From contig BTPG01000006.1 of NCBI GenBank assembly GCA_036245525.1, forward strand, positions 92,556,950-92,620,949: a stretch of 64,000 nucleotides of DNA, written 5' to 3'. Origin of the DNA: Semisulcospira habei. Taxonomy: Eukaryota; Mollusca; Gastropoda; Semisulcospiridae. A model generated the notes under the pieces. It was not told the DNA's origin and did not search any database. It saw only the letters and a program-made list of their open reading frames with translations. The position numbers and the translations under genes are program-made. This document shows, one piece after another, positions 40,701-55,700 of the stretch (within the stretch, counting starts at the first letter, position 1; each line of letters opens with the position of its first letter).

Positions 40701-43700
40701 TTGTAGCCATGGATCAGTTTACACTGTTAAGGACTCTGCATAGAATGGAGTGCATGAAAATTAACCCTTTGGCTGTTGGTGGCGCTTTTTGTCACGGTGA
40801 TTCCTGCAGGAATCACCGTGACAAAAAGCCCTACCGACAGCCAAAGGGTTAAGCTCACCTGTACTCTGTCTAACCTGTATTCTGTCTGACTCCCATGTCC
40901 TGACTATATCTGCAGAAAATGTGTCAGAAAAAAGTACCTGACCATGTATAGTTAAAAAAAGCGCAGCACTATCATTTGACAGGTTTTCTGGTATTTTGCA
41001 AAAACTACACTTCAATTTTCTGACGAAGAATGCATGCATCACATGAACAGTTGTGTGTGTTTGTCGGGAATATGTGATGTATTGTGTCTTGAACTAACAA
41101 ATAGATCAATAAAGAAAGAATTGTGTTAATTTTATGATTTTAAATCGTGTTTTTACAATCCCGCTCGAAAGAATGTAGACCGACAGACTCTCCCGCAGCT
41201 TAAGCGTGTGATTAATTTTACCACGGCATACTCCTGAACGCTCATGTTTCTGTTTCACTTCAATTCATTTCAACGTCAACCTCCTCGACAAAGGTTTTGC
41301 GGGCTTCAGTACACCGATATAACACGATTGTTAACCTACTAGACCTATTTCAGCACCCACGTGTTTGAAACGTGTGTCAGTCTTCAAAGCGATTGATCGA
41401 GATTGCCTGTAAACAAAGAGACTGAGAGCTTGCTAGCTTTCCGGTTGTTGCTTTCAGGTGTAATTTAATTGTAAAACTAAAAGATTCAAGTAGAATTATT
41501 GCCTTAAACCCCGTTTTGGTTTCCTTTTTGATTAGTATTGCTCACTCACCTCGTCATCAGACTACAAATTCTACGAGCGACATCTAGTTTTGACGAAAGT
41601 TTTTCGGTCGTGTTTTCCGGATATGACGTCATTGCCAATGTTTTAAGAGAGCTCGTCCCATGTGTAAACAGCGTTGTCGAGTGATTTGCGAAAGGTTTGC
41701 AAATCTTTTAGGTATTTTGGAGTTTTTTAGTGTCAGTCTCTATCGAGCGAATGCTTCCTTTTTTCTCCAAAACCGTAGGCGCCCTCTTCCCATTATGATA
41801 GGTTTATAAACGTTTCTCACTGTGATACTTCACGATCGCGAGCTCTTTGTAGTTCGTGAGCGTATATAAAACTGCCGACAAGGTTTGAAGACGAAATATC
41901 ACTTCAAAATTATGAAAATTGACCAAAATGCGAGTTATTGTCGCTCAGCGAATGTAGACTGACGGAAGTGGACGAATTGCCAGTAAAGTGGGACATGCCA
42001 AAACAAATTCCAAAAAACCTGCCATTTGTCCTCTTACAGCCCAGCACACATTTCACGTGAACATCTGTTTACTTTCAATAAAATTCAGATGTCACACTCT
42101 CACACGTTCATTCAACAGCACACTATGCAAGTCATTATTTCTCACAGTTGTATTTGAATCGGCCAGTCCATGCCGTGCAGAGAATCCAAACAAAATTCAA
42201 TTATCTCCAGTAGTAGCACATCACAACAGGACCTGTTTTGAACGACCACCATATGAGAGAGATCAATGCCATTAAAGACCATCATTTAGGTGGCTGTAGC
42301 TGTGACTGTGGTTGTCACCACCTAATTGATGGTCTTTAATGACTGGTGACCCTTTTTGCCCTTCAAAACTTCTCTTGAAGGAACACCTGTCTTTTAAGAC
42401 CATATTTTCTTGCAAGAAAGGTGGTTGATCAAAAGATGGTTCTGCTGTGTAACTTCCGTGTAATAGGGAATAAATTACAGTATGTACATCAAAAGTGTGT
42501 GTGTTTACCAGACATCACATGATGACTCTGACGGCCGAGACTGCTGTGGTTCATCCAAGGCTCGCTCCCGCAAGTCCAACAAGGACAAGGAGCCCCACCG
42601 TCGAGCAGGTGGCAAGGTAGGTGGTAGGTGCCTTAGTAACATAATTCTTTCCTGAATTTTGGAGTTGTCCTCAACACTGTGTGACAGGTCATCTGACAGA
42701 CCAGCCATGATATTTCAAGGGTTGCGCCAAGATTGCTATTCTAACACCACAGTTGAAGATTTATATCGGTGTATTATCAGAATTTCAGTCTGCATGGGTG
42801 TCAGTCTTAAATCCTGGAGACTGATTCAGCTTTTTGAAAATCCAAGAAAGCTGAATTTGAACCTTTTTGGTTGAGACTTAGCAGTCCTTCAGACAGTCTG
42901 CTCCATTTGCAAAGAGGCGTAAACTCTCATGAGCCGCATCTGCAAGGCTCAAGAGAATTTATGTCTTGCTGGCCATCAATCAAAGGGCATGACTGTTTTC
43001 ATCACATCGTCTTCCTTTTCTTTTTCATTTGTATATTAAATAATCATTCCTCAATGTGCATCACTCATCAACAAGCCACACTCACTACAAAATCTGAGCT
43101 GCGTGGAGCAGATGCAGGGCTCAAGAGAATTTATGTCTTGCTGGCCATGAATCAAAGAGCATGACTGTTTCCATCACATCAACGTCTTCCTTTTCTTTTT
43201 CATTTGTATATTAAATAATCATTTCTCAACGTGCATTACTCATCAACATAAAACCACACTCACTACAACACCTGTATGGACCAGATGCAGGGCTCATGAG
43301 AATTTATGTCTCTCCCTGGCCATGAATCAAAGAGCATGACTGTTTCCAGTCATTCCAGTTTTTCACCCTGGAGTCTGGGATGGCATCAGGGAATGTCATT
43401 CATAGCCACTGGTAGTCAAATGGTTACTGAAGTAGTTTACATATCGGTTCTTGTTTTTGAGTGCATCCTTCAGCCACTGGGGCTATTTGCATGAGTGAGC
43501 TTAATTTTGTTAGCCACTAAGCAAGGTGCTCTGCTATAGCGGAGCACTTGCTTAGTGGCTTGCACATGATTAAAGTATGTTCATGCAACTGAGGCCCGGT
43601 CCTGTTTACAGTACTGGCAGCTGCGTGCACTAAGTGCTTGAGCTTTTCTCTCCTACATTTGTTTTCTCAAAACTCGTACTGATGGCATTACTAATAGGAA

Positions 43701-52700: not shown

Positions 52701-55700
52701 TCATGTCATCGGTAAGTATTTTTCGAAAAAATACCTTTTAGAGAAAAATGAATATTTTTCAGGCCGGCGACGACTCGGCCACAACCCTGATGAAGAAAGC
52801 GCTGACGGTTCTGCAGATCTATGTCATCAGTCAGCTGGGGTGTGGCAGTCGGGAGTTCAAACGCAACATGCTCAAGAAAACTACCAAAGGGAACCACTGG
52901 GGGTCAGTAGTCTGGCTTGTGTCAGATGCAATTCTTTGTTGTCATTTTCACTTTGAAATACTGTCAATTTTGCTGATAACGAGCTTTGATGTAACAAGAA
53001 TTGGATATAACAATACGTTGCCCCCGAGATGACTCTGGGATGAAGTGGAAAACGTGTGAAAATCTGCGGCAGATTCTGCACAGTATCTTTTCTTCCGGTA
53101 CACAATGGTACAGTCAGGAGACAGTGTCCATGCTGGTCACCAATCTGTTTGTTGGCTCACTATGTCTAATCTGACTGTGTGCGTATTGTGGTGTACAGAG
53201 ATCTGCGGGCGAAACTAGAACTGGCCATCACCCACACCATTGAGCTGGCCCAGCAGCAGCTACAGGAAAAGGAGTGGGAACAGAAAAGTGATGACAGTGA
53301 TGACTACACCAGTGATACAGATGAGGTAGGGCATTCTCTCTGATCAATAATAATAATCATAATGGCTCACGTGAGAAGCAAACGTGAGTATGTTTTGGGC
53401 CATTGGTCGTCCATCCGCCGTCGTCCGTGGTAAACTTTAACGTTGGCATTTTCTTGGAGACTATTCAAGCCACATTCTTCAAACTTGGCCCAAGGAGACC
53501 TTTCTAAACATACCAATTTGAGTGACCTCTCAAAGGTCAAGGTCACAGGGGATCAGGAAATAGGTCCAAAATAGCTATATTTTGACATAATTTTTTTTTT
53601 CTCAAATACTATTCACAAACCCTAACTTGGTACAAAGATACCTGATGGTAAGACCTTTCTATACATACTATGCTGGTTGATCCTTCGGAAAGGTCAAGGG
53701 TCACGAGCTCAGAAAATGTGAAAAATAGCCATATTTTGACAGAAGATGTTTTTTTCTCAAATACTATTCACAACTTCAAACCCAAACTTGGTACAGAGAT
53801 ACTGGATGGTAAGACCTATTTATGCATACTAATTTGGATGACCCCTTGAAAAGGTCAAGGGTCACAAGAGGCTGGCAAATGTGTGTAAAATGCTGATTTT
53901 TTAAATAAAATTGTAGGTATTCCCAAATTTTTGCACATTTTTCAACCAAATTCGGTACAAAGGTAGCTGATGATAAGACCTTCCTATGCATACTAATTTA
54001 GTCGACTCATCACAAAGGTCAAGGGTCACGGGCGGTTGACAGACGTGTGAAAAAATGCTTACATTTTCAGAAAACATGGATTTTGTTGCTGCAGAAGCCA
54101 GCCCTTGTCACAAAGGTCATACATATGTAAATCGGTCATACATGTGAGCCATAATGGCTTTGCCTTTCTTGTTAATAATAATAATAATAATAATAATTTG
54201 TGCCTGCAGCCCTTGGTAAAGCAGGTCAGCCTGAATATATTGCGGTACCCCGGAGCCCTACAGCAGAAGATCGAGTGACCATGATGATTCAAGGGTAGTG
54301 CCAGATTAGCTTGGCACCTTCAGGTGCCAAGCTAATCTGGCACTACCCTTGAATTATCGTGGTCAATCCACCTCATGCAACTGGTACATAGTCATTTAGT
54401 AACACTTCCAAACTTTGGGAAACGCACTTGGGGCTGAAAGGGTTAAGTCAGTGTTATTGCATTTTTATAGTGCTGAATTGGCATAGACTGGTAAAGAAAA
54501 ACCACTGATGAAAAGATCCTCAGGCTGATGTCAGTCTTTGCTGGCCCGCACACCTTGGGCTCAGTTAGGGCTGATGTCGACCTAAGGAGCCTTTCCTCAC
54601 CGTGTGGGAGCCAGAGACCTGCATACGTTATATATCAGTGTGATGCAGTGGTACACTGGAGCGCAGTATATCGAGGCTGACCTGTGATAATAACCCCGTT
54701 GCATGCAGCCCCCCCCCCCCCCCTCCCCGGGCCCTCCCGGTACTATAAACTGAACAATATAAAAAAATAAAAAAAAGCCATTGCACCCCATATTCATCGT
54801 ACCTTTGTGCCTATAGACAATTTCTCAGAAATCGTTGGACCGGCTCAATTAACCCATTTAGCCCCAAATCCATACAACAGGAGATGGATGGACCATGATA
54901 ATTCAAGGGTAGTGCCATGAGCCAAACTCATCTGTCACTACCCTTGAATTATCATGGTCCATCCATCTCCTGCTACAGGCACTTTGTCCTTAACGAGCAC
55001 CTCCAGAATTTGGGAAATGTGGTCTTGGGGTTAAATGTTGAAATCTGTGTTAATAAAGTGCCCATTGGAGTTGGTGTCATGGATTGAAGTCATTGTGAAG
55101 CACTACTGCTTGGTAAGCTGTCTGTGTCAGCAGAACATGCTCAAGCCAGTGTCCACATAAGCTGGCCAGCACGTGACTGTGGGTGAGCTAGCCAAGGACA
55201 CCGTCAGCCCAAGGACCTTTTGCTAACAGTATGCTTTTCCTGTTGCAGAGTGAGCAGATGAGCAGTCCGGCAGTGACCCAGTGTGTTCGCAAAGAGCTGT
55301 CCATGGCCATACGCGACCTCATGCAGCACGGTCTGATGGAGGTCAGTACTTTGGCTCATGATCTAGACTGTGTGTTCCATGCGGACCCAACACTCTACAA
55401 CAAGATACAGACCCACCATGATAGTTCAAGGGTGGTGCCAAAATGGCTTGATTTCTCAAGTAGGATCGACCTGATAGTTGAAGGATGTTGCCAGAATGGG
55501 ATTGACCATGATAGCTCAAGGGTAAAGCCAGAATAGTTTGGCGCCTCGAGGCCCAAGCAATTCTGGCACTACCCTTGTCTGTGTAGTCTGTAGATGACAA
55601 CTCCTAACCTCAGGGCTGAACGTGATAGGATACCATTTGTGTCAGCAGATGTGTCTCAGTAAGCAAGACTGGTGTGCGGACCACTGACGTCGACCTGAGC

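Follow-up and report, generated by a model that had tools for sequence, protein, structure and literature searches.

How is a conserved exon spliced once two retroelements have come to stand inside its splice acceptor? The question is raised by intron 8 of a RUNDC1 gene in Semisulcospira habei, which lies in the 64,000-nucleotide stretch of DNA analysed here (the window). By its best protein matches, which are gastropod proteins, the interrupted gene is RUNDC1. A partial gene model has 888 homologues; among the best 120 of these, many are named RUNDC1 or RUN domain-containing, the RUN domain (PF02759) is annotated in most, and the best named are from Batillaria attramentaria (P0002) and Littorina saxatilis (P0003, "RUN domain-containing protein 1-like"). 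Pfam found no RUN match in the 406-aa partial model, from which exons 4, 5 and 13 are absent (the gene runs past the window end), and gave only a sub-threshold DEC-1_N match; a PDB search with it returned no match. Using P0001 and P0002 in tblastn, the RUNDC1 exons are found all in order, and the ninth coding exon begins where an earlier note on this DNA had set it. With corrected borders, 13 exons give 556 codons without stop or frameshift, and their product shares 98.2% identity with P0001 (557 aligned residues; 9 substitutions and one gap) and 89.6% with P0002 (529 aligned residues). Upstream of RUNDC1, at 19068-19820 on the minus strand, a 250-aa open frame resembles, by eye, the end of a LINE-type reverse transcriptase. 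The exons on either side of the affected intron are as follows.

42512 to 42616, plus strand: RUNDC1 exon 8, phase 0, donor GTAGGT (placed by tblastn with P0001 and P0002, and by its borders)
52763 to 52902, plus strand: RUNDC1 exon 9, 140 nt, donor GTCAGT, causing a frameshift if skipped

Exon 9 is conserved. Its peptide is matched by BLAST in all 120 homologues examined (the best 120 of 888), and in 117 of them the match covers 30 or more of its 47 aa; an ad hoc pattern for the exon matched only 72 of the 120, and BLAST was used instead. As the peptide is common to all 120, a working acceptor should have existed here. The longest contig of P0001 (624 aa) is only 2081 nt, compared with more than 40 kb for the same exons in the window, and must therefore be a spliced transcript, in which the exon 8-9 junction, GGK/AGDD, is intact. 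Given its 9 substitutions and gap, P0001 may belong to a different species that lacks the insertion, so the intact junction supports the need for exon 9 but says nothing on the function of the allele seen here. Intron 8 is 10146 nt long, of which 1051 nt would be left if the insertion were removed. It also holds, a short way upstream of the insertion, a tandem repeat (42927-43348; unit of about 172 bp, three copies).

The inserted DNA is made up of two DIRS elements of different families, E2 and E3, placed head to tail.

43657 to 46686, plus strand: DIRS element E2, 3030 bp, internally deleted, keeping its recombinase (YR) ORF and both inverted repeats
within 43657 to 46686: E2 inverted repeats I2, 148 nt, 96%
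44787 to 46220: E2 YR ORF, with a 13-residue gap against its relatives
near 46321 to 46440: E2 internal complementary region (ICR)
46687 to 52751, plus strand: DIRS element E3, 6065 bp, with RT, YR, ICR and inverted repeats
within 46687 to 52751: E3 inverted repeats I1, 178 nt, 96%
49586 to 51016: E3 RT
50781 to 52406: E3 YR ORF
near 52400 to 52496: E3 ICR

In each element the ICR is complementary to both ends, which meet in it at a 3-bp junction, as is characteristic of DIRS1-like elements. Together with the inverted repeats and recombinase in both, and the RT in E3, this classes E2 and E3 as DIRS1-like on structural grounds. The E3 RT matches Pfam RVT_1 at 6.2e-20, while its RT_RNaseH match is weak (0.0031) and under the cut-off for that family; RT and RNase H were not found by Pfam in the one E2 ORF scanned, and a methyltransferase domain had no Pfam match in four element ORFs. 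Although Pfam gave only weak SAM-like matches for the E3 YR ORF and none for that of E2, the recombinase residues R173, H301, R304 and Y337 (R..HxxR..Y) are invariant in eight aligned sequences that include both. Among 7994 scored candidates sharing most words with the E3 YR, 209 relatives pass 1e-10. The best 120 of the 209 are mostly nameless proteins, many carrying RT domains, and those with a name are uncharacterised proteins of molluscs and hemichordates, together with two from bacterial bins; a search of viral contigs with the E3 YR found no related locus. Two features of E2 may be recorded in passing. Positions 44450-44930 are very C-rich and of low complexity, including 33 consecutive C at 44717, and are either real or an artefact of base calling or assembly. 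The circle junction in its ICR (46310-46470) resembles a recombinase site, in that a 9-bp spacer is flanked by the inverted arms GAGAAAA and TTTTCTC; in E3 and in a further DIRS copy of the window, copy 4, such arms are less regular.

The ICRs also fix the outer ends of the pair to within about 3 bases. The left end of E2 matches its own reverse-complemented ICR from the ATT at 43657 (43/45 bases), and since the TAC immediately to the left also occurs in the ICR, the left breakpoint is ambiguous by 3 bases. Between the right end of E2 and the ICR there are two or three substitutions, according to the alignment chosen (gapped, and partly by eye), and the ICR carries a short tandem duplication of about 17 bases. 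For E3 the match is 44/44 on the left and 43/43 on the right up to 52753, or 87/87 in total, followed by A in place of T at 52754; two differences just inside the right 43 bases may lie beyond the ICR. The pair thus begins with ATT and ends with ATA where the ICR has ATT, without duplicated flank.

46687 to 46689, plus strand: E2/E3 joint, AGAGAAAAATAC-ATT-TGTTTCTTC, matching in form the circle junctions that the ICRs show
52752 to 52762, plus strand: 3-bp core ATA (52752-52754) and host acceptor remainder TTTTTCAG

A published table of DIRS elements gives ATT and ATT ends with junction AAT for four of its five mollusc elements and AAT and AAT ends with junction ATT for the fifth, and BmDIRS1 is tabulated with ATT/ATA ends (PMC3266345). 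The pattern of ends and cores seen here fits this published form, which supports the element ends. It had been claimed earlier that the DIRS sequence stops at about 52753, some 10 bases before the exon, and the ICR match bears this out. Between the terminal trinucleotide of E3 and exon 9 there are only 8 host bases, TTTTTCAG (52755-52762; ATTTTTCAG by the earlier count), the last two of which, 52761-52762, are the AG of the acceptor.

What the insertion may have done to the acceptor is seen when the two host flanks are placed side by side. The left flank (43641-43656, AGCTTTTCTCTCCTAC) has 13 pyrimidines among its 16 bases, and the joined sequence reads AGCTTTTCTCTCCTAC-ATA-TTTTTCAG. Acceptors were judged by pyrimidine counts and yTnA candidates rather than by a trained splice-site score. 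Joined, the site has pyrimidines at 14 of the 17 positions from -20 to -4, compared with 7/17 at present; the eleven other RUNDC1 acceptors in the window have 8 to 15, and only that of exon 13 exceeds the joined site. Within 18-40 nt of the end, the joined site offers CTAAG (34 nt) and TTGAG (26 nt) as yTnA candidates, the former including a CTAA whose A is a possible branch point. Neither the present nor the joined site has a full yTnAy 18-40 nt upstream, CTAAG being without the last pyrimidine. By these measures the joined flanks make a good acceptor, in agreement with the earlier note, which had called the left flank a good pyrimidine tract and the joined flanks a normal acceptor. The tract would originally have lain beside ATNTTTTTCAG, and the insertion, which looks real, would have separated the tract and branch-point candidate from the AG by about 9.1 kb.

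43622 to 43656, plus strand: putative 5' part of the original exon 9 acceptor, now displaced, with the CTAA branch-point candidate and the AGCTTTTCTCTCCTAC tract

The acceptor that remains, ATATTTTTCAG, stands beside the purine-rich end of E3 and has fewer pyrimidines at -20 to -4 than any other of the twelve RUNDC1 acceptors that the window contains. It is not far from the rest, as five others have only 8-9/17, and close to the AG (-12 to -3) its 7/10 is middling among counts of 5 to 10. In the interval 18-40 nt from its end, TTTAG (at 22 nt) is the sole yTnA candidate. We lean towards the view that splicing of exon 9 continues at the same AG, relying on the TTTTTC that is left and on a replacement branch point in the right terminus of E3; this would be TTTTA-G, 22 nt upstream, and would perhaps be used less efficiently. 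The branch point suggested earlier in the terminus, GAGAAAAATGAA, holds no yTnA candidate. The accompanying statement that splicing must now use a terminus branch point, or else skip or alter exon 9, was too strong given the counts above and the intact junction of P0001; forced use of such a branch point, or exon skipping, is a plausible consequence.

Alternatively, the insertion may cripple exon 9, making the allele hypomorphic or null and perhaps polymorphic. The exon could be skipped, the displaced tract could drive a cryptic acceptor in E2, or splicing could shift to a cryptic AG in the end of E3.

52740 to 52741, plus strand: possible cryptic AG in the E3 end, which if used would lengthen the exon by 21 nt in frame (RKMNIFQ) without a stop
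52712 to 52717, plus strand: GTAAGT, resembling a donor, in the right terminus of E3 and 51 nt short of exon 9

With the tract and branch candidate 9.1 kb from the AG and the poorest pyrimidine content of the twelve acceptors, such damage is conceivable. Skipping, computed from the exon model, causes a frameshift with a stop after 350 aa. Moreover, E3 looks young from its 87/87 identity to the ICR, so a bad allele could still segregate. Even so, this outcome seems somewhat unlikely to us, as the nearest homologue, P0001, retains a normal junction, close to its AG the remaining acceptor is like several other RUNDC1 acceptors, and the thirteen exons hold no stop or frameshift. As a separate observation, the donor-like G/GTAAGTAT is found at 46647, 52712 and 57652, in the right termini or ICR of three DIRS copies (E2, E3 and copy 4), and such sites in DIRS termini could make chimeric transcripts. 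The locus is a natural experiment: it tests what share of a 3' splice site can be displaced before a conserved exon drops out, and both breakpoints are located with almost single-base precision.

The split-acceptor reading itself depends on the left flank being what it seems. It is possible that the old tract was deleted or the intron rearranged, and that the pyrimidines at 43644-43653 are there by chance. Indeed, 16-mers as pyrimidine-rich as the left flank make up 3.8% of the window and 3.5% of its host-only part, and TTTTCTCT lines up with identical letters of the right terminus when this is inverted, so that part of the flank could be element-like. When 43,022 host flanks were joined to the same tail, however, 4.2% reached 14/17, 17.3% had CTRA at 18-40 nt, and only 0.69% had both, criteria that were picked after the site was seen. 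The ICR places the start of E2 at the ATT or at most 3 bases further left, and the tract is therefore host sequence. In addition, DIRS elements are described as integrating without duplication of the target (PMC3266345). A chance tract is thus quite unlikely. An assembly error, in which collapsed or chimeric repeats set two DIRS copies beside exon 9, is very improbable: the two adjacent repeats and the C-rich stretch of E2 might invite one, but both outer breakpoints and the joint coincide with element termini, unlike a random misjoin, and the joint has the form predicted from re-use of an end by a recombinase.

The acceptor split between tract and AG bears out part of the earlier claim that a DIRS pair had landed in the tract; the pair was not, however, one unit. 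E2 and E3 are about 67% identical (1872 aligned columns) and thus of different families, which rules out a single insertion of a dimer and implies two insertion events with no joint landing. The second insertion probably re-used the end of the first. From the element ends, joint, flanks and exon as observed, we infer an order of events and a recombinase mechanism. In a first step, a tyrosine recombinase would integrate the E2 circle at AT(A/T) in the intron 8 acceptor, between the pyrimidine tract and T5-CAG. In a second, the different circle E3 would integrate at the right-end junction made by E2, giving the head-to-tail pair. E2 first, followed by E3 at a hybrid site on the right end of E2, is the simplest history, and the identity of E3 but not E2 to its ICR at the ends fits it. 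The counts lean only weakly that way (Fisher p = 0.12, or 0.43 with two edge differences counted), the four substitutions of E2 having been scored partly by eye. Taken as a whole, two-step DIRS integration that split the exon 9 acceptor, with the exon probably still spliced, is the best explanation of the locus, to which we give a probability of roughly 0.7.

Two further DIRS copies lie in the gene.

57376 to 62360, minus strand: DIRS copy 4, antisense, in the intron after exon 12, with flanks TTTTTTTT-ATT...ATT-TTTTTTTTT
27380 to 33940: DIRS copy 1, in intron 3, whose right end resembles an inverted left end and not the usual right end

Copy 1 was excluded from the comparison of target sites as its ends could not be mapped. 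Both mappable sites, those of E2/E3 and of copy 4, read AT(A/T) followed by at least 5 T, although the core in the ICR of copy 4 reads GTT, against this pattern. Over both strands of the gene's host sequence there are 17 instances of the motif AT[AT]TTTT, and a single one of these lies in sense within 25 nt of an acceptor. It could be proposed that DIRS circles (GAGAAAA-N9-TTTTCTC, with pyrimidine-rich arms) prefer AT(A/T) and a T run, making acceptor tracts natural targets, and that the conserved right terminus, with TTTTAG near its end, supplies a branch point, so that introns can bear such insertions and lengthen at their 3' edge. We regard this as highly doubtful, and two sites are too little to claim targeting. 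The presence of one DIRS family at the exact end of another nonetheless bears on site choice by DIRS tyrosine recombinases.

The split acceptor is a single case of an already known kind of event. Among the titles and abstracts listed on DIRS targets or on transposon insertion near splice sites, none concerned a DIRS element in an acceptor, which is no claim of absence in print. Intronic Alu and SVA insertions are known to bring in aberrant splice sites. An aphid P450 pseudogene is similarly described with an intronic transposon insertion that brings aberrant splice sites (PMC9783078). The present site resembles all of these in that intronic elements alter splice signals, but here the element cuts the acceptor itself, leaving 8 host bases, and the case is known from DNA alone. 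With the mollusc DIRS1-like elements AcaDIRS and LgDIRS, as presented in PMC3266345, E2 and E3 share inverted terminal repeats, an ICR with a 3-bp junction, a left ATT, RT and tyrosine recombinase, and the lack of target duplication; they differ in the right end, ATA, and in the tandem arrangement of two families inside a splice acceptor. Finally, Dictyostelium DIRS-1 has been reported to insert preferentially into DIRS-1 (Cappello 1984, as cited in PMC5633606). The likeness is that of one DIRS element inserted into or at another, whereas in S. habei the insertion lies exactly at the terminal core, joins families that are about 67% identical, and is seen at a single locus.
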